Source: Faecalibacillus intestinalis (GTDB taxonomy: Bacteria > Bacillota_I > Bacilli_A > Erysipelotrichales > Coprobacillaceae). From it: a stretch of DNA of 64,000 nucleotides. Position numbers and translations under genes: made by a program. The DNA lies in NCBI RefSeq assembly GCF_003024685.1, contig NZ_PYLQ01000007.1, forward strand, positions 1 through 64,000, written 5' to 3'. Shown piece after piece: positions 7,047-51,165 of the stretch (the stretch's first letter is position 1; each line of letters opens with the position of its first letter). Below the pieces are notes generated by a model that saw nothing but the letters and a program-made list of their open reading frames with translations, did no database searches and was not told the DNA's origin.

Positions 7047-8210
7047 TTATTTATCAAAAATTCTTCTTAGATGTGCATAATCATCAAAGTAATCAATGTT
7101 GGTATCATCATTTATTTTATCAAAATTACTTTCTACGAATAAATCTAATTCAATATATGTTCCATATTCAATTAATTTTATTTCTAAATATGTTTTATCT
7201 GATTGCTCAAAGAAATTGGAGATAATAGTTATTATTTCTGTACAATTATTTACATCTTTAAAAAAGGAATCATTTCCTATATTGATCAATGATTTTACTT
7301 TGGCATTATATTTAGATTTTATGAGAAAAATATAATCATTTAACAAAGTATCAAATATATAATTATTCGTCATAATATTTATTTTATTATCTAATAAATC
7401 ATAAAATTGTTCTATTTGATGTTTAGCATCATCATATTTTTTATCATCTATGTTATTTTCTATCAAAATTAATCCATATCTTAAACTATGTTGTATTTTT
7501 AAAATATTATCATGAAGATAATGTACTAAAGATTGATTTTTTTCTACATATTCTAATTCTTGATTCTTTAACATATATTCTGTTTTTTCATTATAAAGTC
7601 GTGTCATATGTAAAAACAAAATACAAACTACAAAAAATAAAACTGTTAACAAAAGTAAAACTAAATAGATATCATCTATAATTAGATGCATATGACCTAT
7701 ATCATTCAACAGAATAAAATATATTCCAAAAATCAACATCATAGTAATTGTTAATAAATATTTATTTTTTTCAATAATTGTATTTTTTATTTTAGATTTG
7801 AAATAATTTAATACCACAATAAGTGCAAAGAAAAGAATTCTTGCTAAAAAAATGATAGGTATTCTATACAACTTTATAATATTTTCTATATTATAATTTG
7901 TTATTACTTTAAAGAAAAATAAAACTATAGTTGAAGTAAAAACAGATATCCATTGAGAAAATATACAAGGAATAAAATTATAAAATTTAATTTCTTTTTT
8001 CATAACAGAAACAATTATAAAGTTAATAATTGTTATTGCATATGCCATTTCATTGCCAAACAAATCATAAGTTTGCATAAATTCCATAACTAAGAAACTA
8101 ATTACTGATGAAATCAAACAATATCTATTTTTTTGTTCAACATCACAAAAAATACAAATTAATAAAGCTACCAATAACACTTCTAAATAATCTAAAAATA
8201 AATACATCAT
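7047..8210 (-). CDS. GHKL-type membrane sensor (AgrC-like) with a degenerate ATPase domain
   Basis: The first 200 residues hold about six hydrophobic segments, the AgrC-like topology. A coiled-coil linker follows, then a candidate dimerisation/phospho-acceptor helix (SLVHYLHDNILKIQH). The C-terminal part keeps an N-box-like segment (IITIISNFFEQSD) but ends without recognisable G1 or G2 glycine boxes. ATP binding and kinase activity are thus doubtful. The gene overlaps the LytTR regulator gene by 4 bases, so the two form a signalling pair. No agrD-like peptide gene or agrB gene was found next to this pair. Confidence 0.72.
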   Translation of the reverse strand: MMYLFLDYLEVLLVALLICIFCDVEQKNRYCLISSVISFLVMEFMQTYDLFGNEMAYAITIINFIIVSVMKKEIKFYNFIPCIFSQWISVFTSTIVLFFFKVITNYNIENIIKLYRIPIIFLARILFFALIVVLNYFKSKIKNTIIEKNKYLLTITMMLIFGIYFILLNDIGHMHLIIDDIYLVLLLLTVLFFVVCILFLHMTRLYNEKTEYMLKNQELEYVEKNQSLVHYLHDNILKIQHSLRYGLILIENNIDDKKYDDAKHQIEQFYDLLDNKINIMTNNYIFDTLLNDYIFLIKSKYNAKVKSLINIGNDSFFKDVNNCTEIITIISNFFEQSDKTYLEIKLIEYGTYIELDLFVESNFDKINDDTNIDYFDDYAHLRRIFDK

Positions 8211-8899
8211 TTTAATAAATACTCCTTATACGATGCAAGTACATCTTGTTGATACTTCTTTCCAATCTTTAAAGTAACTCCATTTCTCAATAATAACTCT
8301 TCTTTATAAATTTCTTTGACCCAAAATAAATTAACTGCATATGATTTATGAATTCTAACAATATTAGTAGAATTTATAAGAGACATCATTTTATTAAAAG
8401 TGCTCGAATATTTATAAGAATTAGAGGATGTATGAATCGTAATTTCATGTAAAAACGATTCTAAATAAATGATATCTGATAATTGAATAGCTGTTTTTTT
8501 ACCATTAAAATCAAAAGTAATAATTTTATGATTCTTATTAATATATTTTTTTATTAAATTACATGCAATTTTCATGTCTCTATCAAAATTATCTTTCCTA
8601 ATAAAGTAAAATGGTTGTACAATTAATGAATCAAAAATCATATCATTCATTGCTGAAACAAATATAATGATTGCATTAGAATTATTTTCTCTAATTTCTT
8701 CAGCAATTTTTATGCCATTTTTTTCTTTTAAATCAATATCTAAAAAGAAAATATCCCCTTTTTCAAAATACTGAGCTTCAAAATTACTCGTTATACATTC
8801 TATCGAATAATCAAGAAAGATATCTTTAAAATTATCATAAACAATATCTTTTATCTTTTTTACAAAAACTTGATCATCATCTACTATCTTTATTAACAT
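8207..8899 (-). CDS. LytTR-family response regulator
   Basis: Receiver domain: acidic DDD at residues 7-9, phospho-acceptor in FFLDIDLKEKNG, and lysine in FYFIRKD. A LytTR DNA-binding domain follows (DIIYLESFLHEITIHT, later IVRIHKSYAVNL and LKIGKKYQQ). Such regulators bind imperfect direct repeats near promoters. The motif QPFYFIRKD is shared with the agr-locus regulator at 47414, showing that they are paralogues. It lies 52 bases downstream of an uncharacterised membrane protein and is probably cotranscribed with it and the PBP gene. Confidence 0.88.
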   Translation of the reverse strand: MLIKIVDDDQVFVKKIKDIVYDNFKDIFLDYSIECITSNFEAQYFEKGDIFFLDIDLKEKNGIKIAEEIRENNSNAIIIFVSAMNDMIFDSLIVQPFYFIRKDNFDRDMKIACNLIKKYINKNHKIITFDFNGKKTAIQLSDIIYLESFLHEITIHTSSNSYKYSSTFNKMMSLINSTNIVRIHKSYAVNLFWVKEIYKEELLLRNGVTLKIGKKYQQDVLASYKEYLLK

Positions 8900-39776: not shown

Positions 39777-40907
39777 TTATCTGCTAACAGGTATTAATAG
39801 TGAAATGTTTATATTTTGATTTTCATGAATAATTTTTATACTTCCCTGATATTTTTTTAGAATTAATTTTAATGTATCGTATTTCATACGATCAATATTT
39901 TCAATTCCCTGACTAATAAATATTGCAATTTCAAATACACATTCATCTTGAATAGCTTTTATTTCTAACTCATTATTTTGAATACAATTCATTGCTATAT
40001 CAAAAAGATAACTAATGATAATATTTAAATGTTCATCATTAATAAAAGAAATATCTTGAATTGAAATAATCATTGTTGGCGTAATATGTTCTAGTTTTAA
40101 TTGTTCTAATTTCATGTTTACAAATGCATCAAATAATTTATTTCCTGAAGTAATTATCATTTCTTCTTGATCAAGAGATGCTACCTTTTGATCAATCATT
40201 TGATTTACTGTTTCAAATTCTTTCCTTTTAACATATTCTTTCATTTGTAAATATTCATATTTTAAATCATGTTTTAATTTATTTAATTCATTATTTTTCT
40301 TTTCAATAAATGCATAATTTTGTTGATCGTTCTTAAAATAATTTACAGCTTGATTGAGTAACTGTTGTTCATGATAAAGTTTTGTATATCTAAAAAATAG
40401 ATAATAAGAAAAAATGATTGTTAGTACTAAAGTTATTAGAATAATTAGATTTCGATTTACGCCCAACACATCTAAAAAATCATAATAAAGGATGTGATAT
40501 ACACATAACGTGCTTATCGAAATAAGCATTAATAATCCCCAATACATATTTTGATTATCTATAGGATAAAAATGTTTTATATATATCATCAAAGCAATAA
40601 TAATCATGAAAACAATAAATGAAATAGCTTCATAAAATGGTAATAAAAGCACTATATCTTTTATAACCAATGAAAATGAAAGATAAAATAAAATTTCCGT
40701 TATATTCCTATCTAGGAAATAAAAAAGAAAAAAACATATAACTTCTAAAAACAAAACATCTTGTAACAATAAGGTTGATGCAATAGCGTTTATTAAACTA
40801 TTTGATAACAGACAAACAATTAAATATTTCTTAAAAAATTCTTTTGGAACATCCAAAAGATAAATCAGCGCAATTTCAATACAACAAAAATATAAAAAAG
40901 TAATCAT
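39777..40907 (-). CDS. GHKL-type membrane sensor with a degenerate ATPase domain
   Basis: This 376-residue protein has about six hydrophobic segments in its first 180 residues. A phospho-acceptor-like helix follows (NNELNKLKHDLKYEYLQMKE, His in KHD). The C terminal domain keeps the general fold (IIISYLFDIAMNCIQ and LKLILKKYQGSIKII) but the N-box Asn and the G1/G2 glycines are absent. It overlaps its LytTR partner by 4 bases. It may act as a phosphatase or ligand-controlled scaffold rather than a kinase. Confidence 0.72.
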   Translation of the reverse strand: MITFLYFCCIEIALIYLLDVPKEFFKKYLIVCLLSNSLINAIASTLLLQDVLFLEVICFFLFYFLDRNITEILFYLSFSLVIKDIVLLLPFYEAISFIVFMIIIALMIYIKHFYPIDNQNMYWGLLMLISISTLCVYHILYYDFLDVLGVNRNLIILITLVLTIIFSYYLFFRYTKLYHEQQLLNQAVNYFKNDQQNYAFIEKKNNELNKLKHDLKYEYLQMKEYVKRKEFETVNQMIDQKVASLDQEEMIITSGNKLFDAFVNMKLEQLKLEHITPTMIISIQDISFINDEHLNIIISYLFDIAMNCIQNNELEIKAIQDECVFEIAIFISQGIENIDRMKYDTLKLILKKYQGSIKIIHENQNINISLLIPVSR

Positions 40908-41587
40908 TGTAAGTATCTCCTATATGCATGATATTTTTCTACAATATCTTTTGATTGTCTAGAAACATTGAATGTTTGTTTATTAGAAAGTGTCACACTT
41001 TGACTATTGATTTTCGTTACATATTTAAAATTAATAATTGTATAAGAATTTATTTTATAAAAAGCAATATTCTTACATAATGTTTCTGCACATCTTTTTA
41101 AAGTTATATACTGTTGGTACTCATGATCTATTGTAAAAAAAGTACAAATATTTCTATGAGATTGAATATAACAAATATCTACATAACGGATATATTGATT
41201 ATTTTTTTCATCCACCAAATATTGTTTATTACTTTCTGCTTCATCTTTTTCTATTTTAGTAAGTAATCTTTTAAAATCATCTTCATAAAATGCTTTCCTT
41301 ATAAAAAAATAAAGATGCATATCAAAGCAATCATAAACAAGTGCTTCATTATTAGAAATAAATATAATTTTTGTTGTTTTATTGTTTACTTTTTTTGCTA
41401 AAGAAATTCCATCATCTTGCGCTAAAATAATATCAATAAATAAAAAATCATAATTTTCTATATCAATTGTTTGAAAATCATCATTATAAATATCTATATC
41501 ATTTTCACAAAAATAATTACTATTTTCTATTTGTTTTTTTAATATATTACTAAATACAAGATCATCATCAATAATTCCTATTTTCAT
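40904..41587 (-). CDS. LytTR-family response regulator
   Basis: This 227-residue regulator has IIDDD at residues 4-8, phospho-acceptor in FLFIDIILAQDDG and the lysine in FFIRKAF. The LytTR domain begins near QYIRYVDICYIQSHRN and ends YKINSYTIINF...FNVSRQSK. It precedes its membrane partner. Likely targets are the small secreted protein and ABC genes downstream. Confidence 0.87.
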   Translation of the reverse strand: MKIGIIDDDLVFSNILKKQIENSNYFCENDIDIYNDDFQTIDIENYDFLFIDIILAQDDGISLAKKVNNKTTKIIFISNNEALVYDCFDMHLYFFIRKAFYEDDFKRLLTKIEKDEAESNKQYLVDEKNNQYIRYVDICYIQSHRNICTFFTIDHEYQQYITLKRCAETLCKNIAFYKINSYTIINFKYVTKINSQSVTLSNKQTFNVSRQSKDIVEKYHAYRRYLQ

Positions 41588-44700: not shown

Positions 44701-44919
44701 TCTTTCTACATTCAATGGTTCAATATATGTCACATCTGCAGTTTCTGGATCTGTCATAATTGTAGCTGGGTTAGAATTGACTAAAACAATTTTATACCCT
44801 AATCCTCTTAATGCTTTACAAGCTTGTGTACCTGAATAATCAAATTCACATGCTTGACCAATAATAATTGGTCCTGAACCAATGACTAATACTGTGTTAA
44901 TATCTTCTCTTTTTGGCAT
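41701..44919 (-). CDS. carB: carbamoyl-phosphate synthase large subunit (orphan second copy)
   Basis: This 1072-residue protein has both ATP-grasp halves (VLVIGSGPIIIGQACEFDYS; IMILGGGPNRIGQGIEFDYC), the motifs VIEINPRTSRSSALASKATG and VLEANPRASRTVPLVSKV, and the C-terminal allosteric domain. It is thus complete. It is not a recent duplicate of the other carB: many positions differ and the second half reads GGGPNR rather than GSGPIR. No carA lies beside it. The ATG at 44919 has a GGAGG site. It has its own leader peptide and attenuator. Confidence 0.95.
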   Translation of the reverse strand: MPKREDINTVLVIGSGPIIIGQACEFDYSGTQACKALRGLGYKIVLVNSNPATIMTDPETADVTYIEPLNVERLTQIIEKERPDALLPNLGGQSALNLCSELSNAGVLDKYDVQVLGVKVDAIERGEDRLEFKKAMNELGIEMARSEIANTVDEALAIADKLGYPVVVRPAYTMGGAGGGLVYNVDELKIVVNRGLQASLVHQCLIEESILGWEELELEVVRDAKNNMITICFIENIDPLGVHTGDSFCSAPMLTISKEVQDRLQEQAYRIVESIGVIGGTNVQFAHDPVTDRIVVIEINPRTSRSSALASKATGFPIALVSAMLAAGLTLDEIPCGKYGTLDKYYPDGDYVVIKFARWAFEKFKGAEDKLGTQMKAVGEVMSIGKTYKEAFQKAIRSLEIGRYGLGYAKNFNDLSKEELLKLLVNPTSERQFIMYEALRKGATVDELFELTKIKHYFIEQMKELVEEEEKIASYKGNQLPDDVLKQAKKDGFADKYISKLLDVEEKEIRNQRLAMGMHQVWEPVHVSSTKDSSYYYSTYNGKDQDEVSNNKKIMILGGGPNRIGQGIEFDYCCVHASLALKKLGFETIIVNCNPETVSTDYDTSDKLYFEPLTLEDVLSIHEKEKPLGVIAQFGGQTPLNLASQLKENGVNILGTTPETIDMAEDRDLFNEMMEKLEIPMPESGMAVTVDDALEIAQRIGYPLMVRPSYVLGGRGMEVVYDDESLKQYMAAAVGVTPDRPILIDRFLNDAMECEADAISDGENVFVPAVMEHIELAGIHSGDSACILPSKHIPVRHVQTIKEYTKKIAREMNVRGLMNMQYAIADDKVYVLEANPRASRTVPLVSKVCNINMVKLATDIVTRELTGRPSPVKDLKDRKIPHIGVKQAVFPFNMFPEVDPILGPEMRSTGEVLGLANSYGAAIFKAEEATQTKLPTSGRVLISVSDRDKKDVVALARKYYDAGFEIVATGKTFELINSNNIPAIKIKKIKEGRPNIADALTNGELDIVINTPHGKESAHDDSYIRKTAIKMKIPYMTNIAAANAAVEGILEAEIHGTHEVKSLQEYHKAIKD

Positions 44920-44941
44920 CTTTAATCCTCCTTTTGATTGT

Positions 44942-44972
44942 AAAAAAAACATATCTTAGAAAAGATATGTTT
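44942..44972 (-). terminator. attenuator terminator in the second carB leader
   Basis: A perfect 11-bp stem AAACATATCTT/AAGATATGTTT (44947-44972) with a four-base loop is followed by a U run. It lies between the leader peptide and carB. Confidence 0.78.
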
Positions 44973-44976
44973 CAAA

Positions 44977-45045
44977 TTAAAAAATAAAAAGCGAAAAAGG
45001 GCCCATGTCTTTATATTGAATTGTCATAAGTAGATCTTTTTTCAT
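44977..45045 (-). CDS. leader peptide of the second carB, 22 residues
   Basis: A short ORF (MKKDLLMTIQYK, ending GPFSLFIF) has a strong TAGGAGG ribosome site. Its end is strikingly U-rich in RNA, and the stop codon is 4 bases before the attenuator stem. The predicted -10 is TATAAT at 45086-45091 on the minus strand. The layout mirrors the carA leader and fits UTP-sensed attenuation (inference). Confidence 0.65.
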   Translation of the reverse strand: MKKDLLMTIQYKDMGPFSLFIF

Positions 45046-45145
45046 AATGGCCTCCTATAAGCAATTTCGCTCTATCCATAGAAAGATTATATAAGATAAT
45101 GATTGGGAATTAAATAAATTAAAATATAATTATCATACTAATTTT

Positions 45146-45997
45146 TTATTTCCATGCCAAATAATATCCTTGCCAATTCTTTTTAAGTTGAGCTGTTACT
45201 TCTTGTTTCTTTTTTATTCCCATTTCATTTGTATACGTATATTCAACCATCACAGTATCTTCTTTTTTTATATTTTTACATGTATATGCTTTCTCAAATT
45301 CAATATATCTTTATCACTATTAATACAAATTGTTCCTTTCACATCATGATATTCTGTATTTCTTTTAAAATTATATTCTTTATCCCACAAATAGATTTCA
45401 TCTTTCTTTGTCTTATTTCCACTAAATGAAAGAGTAAAATCACCTTTGTTCTTTTTTTCATTATAACTTTCTAACATAATTCCACCACTAGCATCTTCAT
45501 CTAAATAGTTTTTAAAGTTGATATCTGCATCTAACATTCCAAAATTTGTTTCACCATTTGTTTGGGAAATAAGTTGTGCAAATTGAACTGTTTGAATATG
45601 TAGATTTATTATTCCTTTAAAAGGACCTTCTTTATTTAAAGAAAGTGTATATGTATCTTTATCCGTTTTAAAAATAACTTGTGCTGTTGTATTATCTTGA
45701 TAATTTTTTAAAATCAAATCAATATTTATATTATAACTATCCTTTTTAATATCACTGATATAACCACTAAAATAAGTACAAATAGAATTTGTATTTAGTG
45801 AAATTGGTTGATCACCATAAAAGTCATTGATTTGTTGTTGCAACAAAGAATTTGCTTCTTCCAATGCATCCATTTTCTCACTCATCTTAACTGCTACATA
45901 ACTTTCCATAATAAATGCTAGAAAAACAACAATTCCAAAGATAATAATTATATTTCGATGATTATTACTTTGATCCGTTTTTATTTTTTGTTTTCAT
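45146..45997 (-). pseudogene. frameshifted single-pass membrane protein gene
   Basis: Joining frames across two breaks restores one protein. It starts at the ATG at 45997 (MKTK...), has a membrane segment IIIIFGIVVFLAFIM, a coiled-coil (MSEKMDALEEANSLLQQQIN), a beta-rich outer domain, and ends KKNWQGYYLAWK at 45146. Breaks are near 45980 (A run) and near 45285 (INSDKDILN then FEKAYTCKN in the other frame). The central 213 residues remain open (45268-45909). I do not recognise the family. Confidence 0.6.
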
Positions 45998-46183
45998 CTA
46001 AAAGTTCCTCTAAAGAGATACCAAAAACATCAGCCATAGCCTTACAACTTTGTATATCAGGTGATGATTGATTACTTTCCCATTTTGATATTGTTTGTCT
46101 TGTATATGTAGTAATTTACCTAATTCTTCTAGCGATAATCCCTTCATTTTCCGATATTTTTAAATACGTTCTCCAAGTGTCAT
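45981..46183 (-). pseudogene. broken XRE-family regulator gene
   Basis: From the ATG at 46183 (AAAGGAGG site) the sequence reads MTLGERI, an in-frame TAA, KYRKMKGLSLEELGKLL, then after a one-base shift TRQTISKWESNQSSPDIQ and ends SLEELLDENKK. This is a Cro/CI-type helix-turn-helix protein of about 67 residues with one nonsense and one frameshift change. It overlapped the membrane protein gene downstream. Confidence 0.7.
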
Positions 46184-46314
46184 ATAATCTTTCCTCCTTT
46201 TATTCATCATAATATGAAATAAGAAGAAGATATGCTCTAAGGATTAACATTTTGTCTATAAATCTTTACTTTAATAAAAATCAAATATTTCGTACAATTA
46301 TCTAAAGGAATTCT

Positions 46315-46776
46315 ATGAAATCTAAAATACTCTTTATTTATTGTTTTATTTTATTATTATGTGGTTGTTCAAAAAAGGAAGACACTAAAACCGAAGAACT
46401 TCTTACAAATAATGATATTGGTTTTACAATTATCGTTGAAGATGGTCGTGGAATTACAAAGGATTCTAGGATAAATCATATAAATGATTATATTGGTGAT
46501 CAGTATATAGAATCAAAAAAGAATAATGATACAGTTTATTATAATGATTCTATTCAAATTACTTTAAATAAAAAGAATAAAGTTAAAAAAGTAGAACTAT
46601 TTACAGATCATTACAAAGTTGAAGGTAATTTCTACGTTGGTTTAGAAAAAAATAATTTAGATTACGAAAATCACAAAGAAGCGAACAATCAATATATTGC
46701 CTATAGTGAGAATAAAACAGTTAAAATGACCTACACGCTTTCAAACAATACAATTACAAAAATCACATTAGCCTAA
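46315..46776 (+). CDS. small lipoprotein of unknown function
   Basis: This 153-residue protein begins with a lipoprotein signal (KILFIYCFILLLCGCSKKED; lipobox LCGC). The rest is polar and beta-rich (YYNDSIQITLNKKNKVKKVE). No family recognised. It converges on the HTH gene, with which it shares a terminator. Confidence 0.7.
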   Translation: MKSKILFIYCFILLLCGCSKKEDTKTEELLTNNDIGFTIIVEDGRGITKDSRINHINDYIGDQYIESKKNNDTVYYNDSIQITLNKKNKVKKVELFTDHYKVEGNFYVGLEKNNLDYENHKEANNQYIAYSENKTVKMTYTLSNNTITKITLA

Positions 46777-46805
46777 AAATAGTTATCAATCAGATAACTA
46801 TTTTT
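46775..46805. terminator. bidirectional terminator between the lipoprotein and HTH genes
   Basis: Arms AAAAATAGTTATC and GATAACTATTTTT (13 bp, five-base loop) give U runs on both strands. Confidence 0.85.
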
Positions 46806-47115
46806 CTTTTAATTTCTTCATTTTTTCTTCTTTTGCAATCGTTTTAAAAATAATACTTTTACTTGTAGGACTATATGATTCAAAATCTATCTCATGTGCA
46901 TGCTCATCATATATTGGTGCATCATCCACAATAATCGTTACATTCATACGTAAAATATCATAAATTCTTTTTACTAATTTATTATTGGGATTTAAATTAG
47001 GATTTGTTTCAATTCTATAAATAGTACTCTCACTTACTCCTAAGCCCTCTGCAAGCTCTTTTCTAGAAACGCCTCTTTCTATTCTTTTATTCATAATTAG
47101 CTCATTAACATTCAT
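46798..47115 (-). CDS. XRE-family helix-turn-helix regulator divergent from the agr-like locus
   Basis: This 105-residue protein has a Cro/CI-type domain in residues 1-65 (IERGVSRKELAEGLGVSEST, IYRIETNPN) and a basic C-terminal tail. The ribosome site is AAAGGGTG. Its start lies 150 bases from agrD on the opposite strand, so it is well placed to control the agr-like operon or be controlled with it; this is inference from position. Confidence 0.8.
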   Translation of the reverse strand: MNVNELIMNKRIERGVSRKELAEGLGVSESTIYRIETNPNLNPNNKLVKRIYDILRMNVTIIVDDAPIYDEHAHEIDFESYSPTSKSIIFKTIAKEEKMKKLKEK

Positions 47116-47186
47116 TATCCGTCACCCTTTTAATTCATGTTAACAATTAAATCGTGCATTTTACGCATTATAAAAGATACCTTCAG

Positions 47187-47215
47187 GAACGATAACTATT
47201 CTTTCATGCGCGTTC
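47187..47215. promoter_or_regulatory. inverted GAACG/CGTTC pair upstream of agrD
   Basis: GAACG (47187-47191) and CGTTC (47211-47215) face each other with a 19-base gap and end just before the -35 box. CGTT is the core of LytTR binding sites, so these may be AgrA-like sites. The short match makes this tentative. Confidence 0.35.
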
Positions 47216-47217
47216 TA

Positions 47218-47245
47218 TTGACTTTATATTCGTGTCAAATATAAA
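47218..47245 (+). promoter_or_regulatory. promoter of the agr-like operon
   Basis: TTGACT (47218-47223), 16-base spacer, TATAAA (47240-47245), then an AAGGAGG ribosome site at 47254-47260 before the agrD start codon. Confidence 0.7.
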
Positions 47246-47265
47246 GTACACTTAAGGAGGTAATT

Positions 47266-47397
47266 ATGATAAACTATTTAATTGAAAAATACTTTACATT
47301 GTTAAGCGGGGTAGCTTACTTAGGTGCCTCATCAGAATCAATATTAAATTTATATGAATTCGAAAAACCTGAACAATTAAAGAATTTAAACAAATAA
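47266..47397 (+). CDS. agrD: AgrD-like cyclic autoinducer peptide precursor, 43 residues
   Basis: The gene has a strong AAGGAGG site 5 bases before the ATG. The product has an amphipathic N-terminal helix (MINYLIEKYFTLLSGVAYLG), a core SSESILNL and an acidic tail EFEKPEQLKNLNK. The tail aligns with the conserved AgrD tail of Staphylococcus aureus (EVEVPKEL), with the proline kept. By that register the five-residue ring C-D-F-I-M of AgrD corresponds to S-I-L-N-L (residues 25-29), so a serine replaces the ring cysteine and a lactone is predicted instead of a thiolactone. It is followed by regulator, sensor and agrB genes on the same strand. Confidence 0.75.
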   Translation: MINYLIEKYFTLLSGVAYLGASSESILNLYEFEKPEQLKNLNK

Positions 47398-47413
47398 GGA
47401 AGGTGGCATCATT

Positions 47414-48112
47414 ATGAATATTTTGATATTAGAGGATACAAATACTTTTGTAGAGGAGTTTGTTGATATACTCAAAAATAACAATCTATTCGCTGATGCC
47501 CATTTCTTTTGTCTAGGGGATCACTTTGAAGAGATTGATAACACAAAAGACTACCAAATTATTTTTATAGATGTTCATTTAAGTAAATCAATAAATGGTA
47601 TCGATTTTTCTATAAAACTTAAAAAGAGGTTTCCCAAAGCACTTATTGTTTTTGTGACCATGAACAATAACTTTGTTCATAAATCCATGGAACTTCAACC
47701 ATTTTATTTCATTAGAAAAGATCATTTAAATGAAGACATGTCTATCTTCTTTAAAATGTTTAAAGAACATTTAGAAAACACAAGTTTTATAGTCATTAAC
47801 GCTAGAGAAAAACACGTACGTATTAATACCAGTGATATTATCTACATAGAAGCTGATGGTCATTACTTAAAAATTGTCACATTAGATGGTGAATACAAAT
47901 TCAAAGAAAAGATAAAAGAATTTAAAACTCAACTCAATAATAACAATATCATTCAAGTACATAGATCCTATCTTATTAATTTAGATTTTGTCTATGATGT
48001 AAATTCCAAGTTCATCATCTTAAGAAACAAGAAAGAAATCAATATAGGTAAAACATATAAAAAGAAATTTAAACTAACTTATCAGGATTATTTACTCAAT
48101 GGTAGCTTATAG
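47414..48112 (+). CDS. LytTR-family response regulator (AgrA-like)
   Basis: This 232-residue regulator has the acidic pocket in ILEDTN, the phospho-acceptor in IIFIDVHLSKS and the lysine in FYFIRKD. The LytTR domain includes DIIYIEADGHYLKIVT and IIQVHRSYLINLDFV. It lies 16 bases after agrD and overlaps the sensor gene by 14 bases, so it is the response regulator of the agr-like system. Confidence 0.88.
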   Translation: MNILILEDTNTFVEEFVDILKNNNLFADAHFFCLGDHFEEIDNTKDYQIIFIDVHLSKSINGIDFSIKLKKRFPKALIVFVTMNNNFVHKSMELQPFYFIRKDHLNEDMSIFFKMFKEHLENTSFIVINAREKHVRINTSDIIYIEADGHYLKIVTLDGEYKFKEKIKEFKTQLNNNNIIQVHRSYLINLDFVYDVNSKFIILRNKKEINIGKTYKKKFKLTYQDYLLNGSL

Positions 48113-49289
48113 TATATTTCTTAATTTTGTAGAAATTTTAACTCTTACAACATTTGTTTACCTTTATTATTCACTTTCAAGTAGAAAACAATTTTGTCTT
48201 CTACTTACTTCTTTATTCTTAATATGTGAATTATGTGATATTTTTAGAGAAAATGGTTTCATGATACTAATTGGATACTTTATCGCATGTTATTCATTTG
48301 TCTTGTACGAAAAAAGAAGAATACACTTTGGAGATATATTTATATTAGCCGGTTATTTATTTTCAATGTTCATATATCCTTATATATCTTATTGTCTATA
48401 TAATAAAATATTAGATACTGGATATGAAACTGTATACTACATTTGTGCAGGTATAACTTCTAAATTATTTTTAATACTTGTAACCTGTTGGTTACTTAGC
48501 CATTTAAAGTTCACATTTCCTGTTCCTAACAAACAATACTCATTAGTAATTATCACAGAAGTTGTTATTTTAAGTATTTTTGGAATGATTAGCTATGATA
48601 ATGTAGAAGTAACTGCATCTTATAGTCCTGTTATTATTTGTATTTTATTATTGATTACTTTCATTCTTATTATAATTAATGGTATTTACCTAAATCGAAT
48701 ATACGCAGAAAAGATGCAGTATGAAAAACAATTACAAAAAGAAAAATATATAAAACAAAGCTTACGTCTCATACAAAACATTAGTTATGATATTGATGAT
48801 AAGAAACATCGTATTCATTGGATATTAGAACACATTAAACACTTAAACAACGATACAAACACTGAAATATCCAAAGCTATTGAACAATATCAATCTAAAA
48901 ACACTTACCAAAAATTAGTTGCATCTAAAAATCCGGTATTTGATATTTTGATTTCTGTAAAAATCAATAGGTTACAAGATGATAATATAAGTATTAAATC
49001 TTTCTTTGAAATTAGCCAAAATGAAAAATATGATGATTTAGATTTTATTGATGTTATTTCTGAAATATTAGATTATGTTAAAAGACATAATGAAATAACT
49101 TTGCATATCAAAGGTCAAGGTATTTATACGTTAGTTGAACTTTATTCAGAAAATGATTTTTATGATTATGATAGATGTAAAATTGAATCTGATTTAATTG
49201 TTAAGAAAAAGAACATTTATAAAGATGGTATTTATTACATGAAATTTTTATTAAAAGGAACAAATGATGATGTTAGAGAAAATTTATGA
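48099..49289 (+). CDS. AgrC-like membrane sensor with a degenerate GHKL domain
   Basis: The first 210 residues hold about six hydrophobic segments, the topology of peptide-sensing AgrC receptors. The helix that follows (SYDIDDKKHRIHWILEHIK) holds candidate phospho-acceptor histidines. The C-terminal region (DVISEILDYVKRHNEI, TLVELYSENDFYDYDR) has the position of an ATPase domain but lacks clear N, G1 and G2 boxes. Gene order suggests that it detects the AgrD-derived peptide. How it would signal without ATP-binding motifs is unclear. Confidence 0.75.
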   Translation: MVAYSIFLNFVEILTLTTFVYLYYSLSSRKQFCLLLTSLFLICELCDIFRENGFMILIGYFIACYSFVLYEKRRIHFGDIFILAGYLFSMFIYPYISYCLYNKILDTGYETVYYICAGITSKLFLILVTCWLLSHLKFTFPVPNKQYSLVIITEVVILSIFGMISYDNVEVTASYSPVIICILLLITFILIIINGIYLNRIYAEKMQYEKQLQKEKYIKQSLRLIQNISYDIDDKKHRIHWILEHIKHLNNDTNTEISKAIEQYQSKNTYQKLVASKNPVFDILISVKINRLQDDNISIKSFFEISQNEKYDDLDFIDVISEILDYVKRHNEITLHIKGQGIYTLVELYSENDFYDYDRCKIESDLIVKKKNIYKDGIYYMKFLLKGTNDDVRENL

Positions 49290-49755
49290 TAAATATGATT
49301 TTGATCAAGATTATGAAGTATATAAGTATGGTCAACAAGTTTTAATATTTAATTCAATCGTTAATATATTTATGTTTATTCTAGGATTATGTTTACATGA
49401 AGGACTTATGACACTAGTTTGGATGCTTGCATTTTCCGGATTAAGAGTGAATTTAGGTGGATATCATTGTGATAGTCCTGTTAAATGTTTTGTATCTTCC
49501 AATTTAATATTTTTTCTATCTATGCTTTCTTATAAATATTTAAGTTCGTATTTCTTATTATTATTTATTCCACTTGGAATACTATTTATGTTATTTTTTA
49601 AATATATTCCATTTATAAATAAAAAAGCAAAAATTACAATATGTATAGAACTTATTTGTTTATTTATTCCAAAAATAAATATGATTGTTATTCTAGCTTT
49701 ATGCGAAAATATCATTTTATATTTAATGACAGCCAAAGAAAAAGTCAATTCGTAA
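49264..49755 (+). CDS. agrB: AgrB-like peptide-processing membrane protease
   Basis: This 163-residue membrane protein has the accessory gene regulator B signature LRVNLGGYHCDSPVKC. His68 and Cys75 are seven residues apart, as are the catalytic His77 and Cys84 of S. aureus AgrB. Several membrane segments follow. AgrB cuts the AgrD tail and forms the cyclic peptide. At 163 residues it is somewhat short, but the catalytic part is complete. It overlaps the sensor gene by 26 bases; three successive ATG codons (49264, 49267, 49270) are possible starts. Confidence 0.9.
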   Translation: MMMLEKIYDKYDFDQDYEVYKYGQQVLIFNSIVNIFMFILGLCLHEGLMTLVWMLAFSGLRVNLGGYHCDSPVKCFVSSNLIFFLSMLSYKYLSSYFLLLFIPLGILFMLFFKYIPFINKKAKITICIELICLFIPKINMIVILALCENIILYLMTAKEKVNS

Positions 49756-49768
49756 TGTGAATTGACTT
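49742..49768 (-). terminator. terminator of nfnAB, shared with the agrB end
   Basis: Stem AAGTCAATTC/GAATTGACTT, 10 bp, followed by a T-rich tract on the minus strand; only a weak one on the plus strand. Confidence 0.65.
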
Positions 49769-49776
49769 CTTAAATA

Positions 49777-51165
49777 CTATTTATTTTGTAGATATTCATC
49801 CATTGCCTTAGCTGCTTTTTTACCAGCACCCATAGCTAAGATAACTGTTGCTGCACCAGTAACAACATCTCCACCTGCATAAACACCATCTTTAGATGTT
49901 TTCATTGAATCTTCATCAACGATAATTCCACCCCAAGATTGGCAATCTAAACCAGGAGTTGTATGTCTAATTAATGGGTTTGGACTTTGTCCAATAGCAA
50001 CAATAACTGTTCCTGTTTCAATTGTGAAGTTAGATCCTTCTTTAGCGATTGGTCTTCTTCTTCCAGATGCATCAGGTTCACCTAATTCCATTTCAACACA
50101 TTCCATAGATTTAACCCATCCATCTTCACCTTCAATTTTAACTGGATTAGTTAATAGTTTGAAGATAATTCCTTCTTCTTTAGCGTGATGCACTTCTTCA
50201 GCACGAGCAGGAACTTCTTCAGGTCCACGACGATAAACGATATATACGTTTTTAGCTCCTAAACGTTTTGCAGTTCTTGCAGCATCCATAGCAACGTTAC
50301 CAGCACCGATAACACATACTGTATCTGTTACTTTAACTGGAGTAGGATGATCTGGGAATTGATATCCTTTCATTAAGTTAACACGAGTTAAGAATTCGTT
50401 TGCTGCATAAACACCGTTTAAGTTTTCCCCAGGAATTCCTTGGAAACGTGGTAAACCAGCACCACTACCTACGAAGATTCCTTGATATCCTTGTTCTTGT
50501 AATTCATCAATTGTAATTGAACGTCCTACAACAACATTTGTTTCGAAATCTACACCTAAAGCAGCAACACCATCTACTTCGCTTTGCACTAATTTTTTAG
50601 GTAATCTGAATTCTGGAATACCATAAGATAATACCCCACCTGTTTTATGTAATGCTTCAAAAACAGTCACATCATAACCTTTTTTAGCTAATTCACCAGC
50701 ACATGTAATACCAGCAGGTCCTGATCCAATAACAGCAACTTTTTTACCATTTTTTTCAATTTTTAATTCTGCAGGTTTTCCATGTTCTCTATGATAATCA
50801 GCAACGAATCTTTCTAATCGTCCGATTCCTACTGATTCAGTTTTAATTCCTCTAACACATTTACCTTCACATTGATTTTCTTGAGGACAAACACGTCCAC
50901 AAATTGCAGGTAATGCATTTTCTCTTGTAATTGTTTGATAAGCTTCTTCAAATTCACCTTCTGCAACATGATGAATGAATTCAGGAATTGGTACTCCTAC
51001 TGGACATCCATCCATACAGAATGGTTTTTTACAATTTAAGCAACGAGTTGCTTCTTCCATAGCTTGTTCTTTTGTATATCCTAAAGAAACTTCTTCAAAG
51101 TTTTTATTTCTTACATTAGGATCTTGTTCAGGCATTTTAACCTTATTTGGTGACATATTAGGCAT
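49777..51165 (-). CDS. nfnB: NADPH-dependent oxidoreductase, NfnB / GltA-like subunit
   Basis: This 462-residue flavoprotein has two N-terminal [4Fe-4S] motifs (CLNCKKPFCMDGCPVG and CGRVCPQENQCEGKC), an FAD-binding VAVIGSGPAGITCAGELAKK and an NADP-binding VCVIGAGNVAMDAARTAKRL. Alone it would be called a glutamate synthase small subunit. Directly beside an NfnA-type protein and without a gltB gene it is better read as NfnB, which with NfnA couples NADH, ferredoxin and NADPH by flavin-based bifurcation. The two genes overlap by one base. Confidence 0.85.
   Translation of the reverse strand: MPNMSPNKVKMPEQDPNVRNKNFEEVSLGYTKEQAMEEATRCLNCKKPFCMDGCPVGVPIPEFIHHVAEGEFEEAYQTITRENALPAICGRVCPQENQCEGKCVRGIKTESVGIGRLERFVADYHREHGKPAELKIEKNGKKVAVIGSGPAGITCAGELAKKGYDVTVFEALHKTGGVLSYGIPEFRLPKKLVQSEVDGVAALGVDFETNVVVGRSITIDELQEQGYQGIFVGSGAGLPRFQGIPGENLNGVYAANEFLTRVNLMKGYQFPDHPTPVKVTDTVCVIGAGNVAMDAARTAKRLGAKNVYIVYRRGPEEVPARAEEVHHAKEEGIIFKLLTNPVKIEGEDGWVKSMECVEMELGEPDASGRRRPIAKEGSNFTIETGTVIVAIGQSPNPLIRHTTPGLDCQSWGGIIVDEDSMKTSKDGVYAGGDVVTGAATVILAMGAGKKAAKAMDEYLQNK

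Follow-up and report, generated by a model that had tools for sequence, protein, structure and literature searches.

Can a peptide quorum-sensing operon of the agr type signal through a receptor that lacks the usual ATP site? The question is raised by positions 47266 to 49755 of the window, by which we mean the whole 64,000-nucleotide stretch of Faecalibacillus intestinalis DNA that was analysed. A first-pass annotation had read these positions as an agr-like locus with a serine-ring signal peptide and a sensor without clear ATP motifs.

An agr-type operon in an accessory segment

Four genes lie on the forward strand in the order D-A-C-B. They encode an AgrD-like precursor of 43 amino acids (47266 to 47397), an AgrA-like response regulator of 232 amino acids with receiver and LytTR domains (47414 to 48112), an AgrC-like receptor of 396 amino acids with a degenerate ATP-binding domain (48099 to 49289), and AgrB, a peptide-processing membrane endopeptidase of 163 amino acids (49264 to 49755). 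All four frames are open and have good start sites. The ribosome site claimed for the 43-codon peptide gene is indeed strong, with AAGGAGG 7 nt before the ATG. A gap of 16 nt separates the peptide and regulator genes, and the regulator and sensor genes overlap, as do the sensor and AgrB genes. The coordinates agree with the D-A-C-B order noted earlier, and the same order, rather than B-D-C-A, was found in five related loci. Gene order alone is unremarkable, since an agrACDB order has already been described for Clostridioides difficile (PMC3754575).

The regulator matched LytTR (6.4e-21) and Response_reg (3.4e-9) in Pfam. It keeps Asp53 and Lys102, and Asp8, Asp53, and Lys102 were invariant across 24 partner regulators. 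AgrB matched PF04647 (6.6e-22). It retains His68 and Cys75, seven residues apart, as the annotation had stated, and both residues are invariant in the five AgrB proteins of this genome. With the blind profile result for AgrD described below, the gene set and the Pfam matches to AgrB and LytTR confirm that 47266 to 49755 is an agr-type operon.

An XRE-type HTH regulator (46798 to 47115, reverse strand; Pfam HTH_3, 7.5e-9) is divergent from agrD and may have a role in the agr system. Further agr loci (L019, L104, L159, and L160) have HTH genes next to them as well. From its sequence, the divergent intergenic region between the two (47116 to 47265) is the likely operon promoter region. It contains a promoter-like TTGACT-18-TAAAGT at 47218 to 47247, and promoter-like matches across the region were no more frequent than in shuffled sequences. 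A scan for 9-mer repeats in the window found no LytTR direct repeats upstream of agrD. Rfam gave no match over 44900 to 49900; an RNAIII-like RNA of any family in Rfam is therefore absent from that stretch.

The HTH gene and the agr genes together form an accessory cassette. In a sister species (G001), the flanks match the window, the segment from 46777 to approximately 49734 is missing, and a lipoprotein gene adjoins the gltA terminator at the empty site. The segment is likewise absent between carB and gltA in G003, G004, G005, and L177. Judged by the protein of the neighboring gltA-like gene, the nearest named relatives of the genome are an uncultured member of the Firmicutes (94%) and Massilimicrobiota timonensis (87%). 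Relatives of the sensor were found in neither viral contigs nor plasmids, and relatives of the regulator were not found in viral contigs; there is thus no sign of a phage- or plasmid-borne cassette. A single-protein search of genome contigs with AgrB returned no match.

Serine at the ring position of AgrD

In the precursor, MINYLIEKYFTLLSGVAYLGASSESILNLYEFEKPEQLKNLNK, Ser25 occupies the position of the AgrD ring cysteine. The predicted ring is S25-I-L-N-L29, Tyr30 follows it, and Pro35 lies ten residues beyond the serine. We built an AgrD profile on 33 AgrD-like peptides, masking the ring nucleophile, and for a blind test left out the window peptide and three other serine peptides of the same genome. 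In the blind test, the window peptide ranked first of 350 small open reading frames in the 64-kb window, with an E value of 1e-4 (the second had 0.92). Across the whole locus set, nearly all strong matches to the masked profile (E below approximately 0.01) adjoin AgrB or a regulator, and background begins at an E of approximately 1. A Pfam search that included PF05931 returned no relevant match to the window peptide. NCBIfam TIGR04223 also failed to match it, though 45 of 49 relatives do match, so most of the family is already annotated as AgrD. The profile search that the annotation had proposed therefore succeeded for AgrB through PF04647; for the peptide, it succeeded with the masked profile and failed with TIGR04223 and PF05931. 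By register and by profile, the peptide has the ring nucleophile, conserved tail, and proline at +10 of an AgrD precursor. It lacks the cysteine of a thiolactone and, as the annotation had noted from the SILNL ring, carries a serine instead; serine is an accepted variant in published lactone autoinducing peptides.

Serine rings recur in this genome. Two paralogous operons encode SQYGL-YNPKCPVKL and SISGL-YQPKKPDDF in the same register, directly upstream of the regulator and sensor, and the peptide associated with a third AgrB contains SWWIL-YEPKKPQAL. A classical cysteine peptide, CFYWI, occurs at one AgrB locus. This only Cys-type agr locus of the genome (L020, 5792 to 7082, reverse strand) has its AgrC split into two open reading frames of 264 and 157 amino acids by a frameshift or an assembly error.

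Among 38 distinct AgrD peptides from the 43-genome family, the ring residue was serine in 26, cysteine in 9, and threonine in 3; near-orthologues occur among the 38, which are therefore not independent events. A few peptides from two further families, one a sister and one more distant, were mixed at this position. At an orthologous locus in five species of one genus, the rings were SRWAD, SRWGD, SRWSD, and SRIGD. Of the ring conservation that was to be checked across orthologous loci, the serine held throughout this locus and other ring residues varied. The combination of D-A-C-B order, a serine ring, and a degenerate sensor was found in the window, in L014 of the same genome, in L056 of the same genus, and in L054, L058, and L061 from three other genera. 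In L015, L066, L070, L072, L092, and L112, the peptide gene is directly upstream of the regulator gene, and AgrB is apart or was not seen. A rule linking serine rings to degenerate sensors was considered and rejected: serine accompanies intact kinases in L082, L091, L104, L161, and L079, and a cysteine ring accompanies a degenerate sensor in L166.

The view that serine is known only from a few staphylococcal AgrD peptides does not hold. A pentapeptide lactone closed between Ser25 and F29, from a precursor with Tyr30 and Pro35, was identified in Clostridium thermocellum by LC-MS/MS (PMC5322536), and GBAP of Enterococcus faecalis is a lactone, as is the Staphylococcus intermedius peptide (PMC3673130). 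Nor is serine a staphylococcal rarity when it is the commonest ring residue of the present family. Far from being an exception, rings closed as oxygen esters, through serine and sometimes threonine, are the commonest among the AgrD peptides of an entire bacterial family. A possible reason comes from known chemistry, in which tail-less pentapeptide lactones outlast thiolactones by far (PMC11297923).

Several other peptides were observed near agr genes. Threonine at the ring position (TWIWM, TWFGV) in L158 (3714 to 3848), L159 (4418 to 4552), and L099 (6877 to 6999) would give a threonine lactone. Short AgrB-linked peptides in L151 (3553 to 3657), L152 (4516 to 4623), and L154 (6497 to 6595) have SPGGLYKPRR-like ends without the usual second proline and acidic end. 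Peptides of 64 amino acids in L072 (5483 to 5677) and 63 amino acids in L150 (3165 to 3356), both near AgrB, have similar ends (GPGYTENEECW and NPGYTESEC); they have the appearance of lanthipeptide-type precursors and are possibly under agr control. A truncated AgrD-like frame, SYSFVILYELHIRT, precedes a degenerate sensor locus in L031 (512 to 622) and is probably a decayed peptide gene.

An AgrC-like receptor without the usual ATP site

Pfam gave no relevant match to the window sensor, and a sequence profile of these sensors did not find AgrC in the PDB; AgrC was found only through a fold search. An AlphaFold2 model of moderate confidence (26-sequence alignment, pLDDT 79, pTM 0.54) has six N-terminal helices, a long helix bearing His237, and a small alpha/beta domain in which the ATP-site helix and lid are missing between the last strands. 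The nearest solved structures were Staphylococcus aureus AgrC (6e52 and 6e95, Foldseek E of 1.9e-4, and also 4bxi), with Spo0B (1f51) lower in the same search. The sensor thus has the membrane part and histidine helix of an HPK10 kinase, and it has no GHKL ATP-binding domain bearing the N and G boxes. With hhalign, the sensor was aligned to one of the family's intact AgrC proteins (E of 1.3e-25 over 343 columns); the alignment paired His237 with the kinase histidine, placed a tyrosine at the N-box asparagine, and ended at the point where the lid and G boxes would be expected to start.

These losses extend beyond the window. No HATPase family matched any of 26 related sensors, while HATPase_c_5 matched 24 of the 59 sensors in a wider set, and His237 was invariant in all 59. 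The 26 degenerate sensors, from many genera, formed one group in the tree (support 93/96), and other parts of the tree show additional losses; three of the 26 were labelled partial solely because of regular-expression matches outside the N box. In this clade the N-box asparagine is replaced by many residues and the HGxG box is absent. The earlier observation that the sensor lacks ATP motifs was therefore borne out. Between orthologous degenerate sensors at loci other than the window copy, dN/dS was approximately 0.25, 0.24, and 0.19, indicating that such sensors are maintained. The window locus lacks an orthologue within its genus, and its sensor is on a long branch. The missing ATP motifs are the most unusual feature of the locus, more so than the serine, because they are common to a large clade of sensors under selection. 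The dN/dS values, the conserved Asp8, Asp53, and Lys102 of the regulators, and the loss of the ATP site together indicate that sensor and regulator are kept while the sensor is without the usual means of making phosphate.

Two further pairs of a LytTR regulator and an AgrC-like sensor without an ATP site lie on the reverse strand of the window (7047 to 8899 and 39777 to 41587), with no adjoining AgrB or AgrD. Orthologues occur in species of the same genus (L022 and L098) and are under purifying selection.

Proposed signaling and known systems

We think it likely that this is an agr-type peptide-signaling operon with a SILNL lactone as signal and an AgrC-like receptor that acts on the LytTR regulator without the usual ATP site. 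Judging by the AgrB family and by the lactone known from C. thermocellum, we infer that AgrB would cut the 43-residue precursor after Leu29 and keep the core bound to its cysteine as a thioester. Ser25 would then attack the thioester to form the five-residue lactone, which may carry a short N-terminal tail. The released peptide would bind the six-helix membrane part of the receptor. As the usual ATP site is missing, autophosphorylation is probably absent. Most probably, peptide binding would alter how the histidine-bearing helical domain handles the regulator, either through Spo0B-like activity as a phosphatase or phosphoryl relay or through DivL-like docking; the phosphate would come from another kinase or from acetyl phosphate. 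The regulator would then act on its own operon and on further targets. Given the retained histidine and the intact receiver aspartate, we rank relay or phosphatase action first, docking second, and a cryptic kinase third.

Two other accounts of the sensor were weighed. It could be a working histidine kinase in an ordinary agr system, its ATP site diverged beyond recognition. The similarity to intact AgrC along the whole chain and the AgrC fold would fit, some histidine kinases stay active with unusual boxes, and a highly diverged site might still bind nucleotide. However, the variety of residues at the N-box asparagine, the lost HGxG box, the model without helix and lid, and the lack of any HATPase match among the 26 relatives all speak against it, and we regard it as unlikely. 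We give about the same low weight to a receiver-only or decaying cassette, in which acquired agr genes carry a degenerating or decoy sensor. The empty sites in G001 and four other relatives and the long branch of the window sensor are consistent with decay, but the four open frames with good starts and the purifying selection on sensors of the same type elsewhere, in many genera, are not.

Doubts about the peptide itself take two forms. That it is no signal precursor and fits the register by chance could be argued from its lack of Pfam and NCBIfam matches; its first rank in the blind profile, the occurrence of peptides at the same place and register both in paralogous operons and in operons of other species, and the AgrB within the same operon make this very improbable. 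The mature signal might instead be a homodetic cyclopeptide, formed from a tail-less lactone by an O-to-N acyl shift. For the thiolactone of a tail-less Listeria pentapeptide, rearrangement has a half-life of 1.3 min, and the lactone analogue also rearranges, slowly (48% in 22 h) (PMC11297923). An N-terminal tail would block the shift, and this form of the signal seems to us improbable.

If the preferred reading, a lactone signal and a receptor acting without its own kinase activity, is correct, a compact four-gene cassette would show that a non-kinase receptor can serve peptide quorum sensing, and the source of phosphate becomes a question. The evidence leaves evenly balanced a broader proposal, that a long-lived clade of AgrC-type receptors signals without a kinase role, peptide binding controlling a LytTR regulator through the retained histidine (as relay or phosphatase) or by docking, with serine-lactone signals and D-A-C-B operons. 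The family for which this is proposed consists of bacteria that are mostly uncultured or little studied. Kinase-dead AgrC homologues and serine-rich AgrD peptides of this family may have been described earlier; the literature covered was open PMC papers.

Staphylococci have a B-D-C-A operon with an ordinary AgrC. The window locus shares with staphylococcal agr the AgrB family, the AgrD register (nucleophile at 0, proline at +10), the AgrC fold, and a LytTR regulator of the AgrA type, and differs in its serine for cysteine, its D-A-C-B order, and its sensor without ATP boxes. The agr peptide of S. intermedius and S. pseudintermedius is likewise a serine-closed lactone (cited in PMC3673130) but is a nonapeptide with a tail. 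Closer in the precursor is C. thermocellum Clo1313_2818, with the same ring from Ser25 to residue 29, Tyr30, and Pro35 and a pentapeptide lactone seen by LC-MS/MS (PMC5322536), although no co-located AgrB, AgrA, or AgrC is known there. E. faecalis Fsr has a lactone ring and AgrB, AgrC, and AgrA homologues, whereas its ring is four residues larger and fsrD lies inside the fsrB sequence (PMC3673130); the window locus has a separate upstream peptide gene and a predicted ring of five. For the receptor, the comparison is with Caulobacter DivL and with Spo0B. DivL reads the phosphorylation state of a regulator (PMC4211667), Spo0B is a soluble relay protein, and neither is described as a peptide-pheromone receptor, but both, like the proposed receptor, are histidine-kinase-like proteins with no ordinary kinase role.
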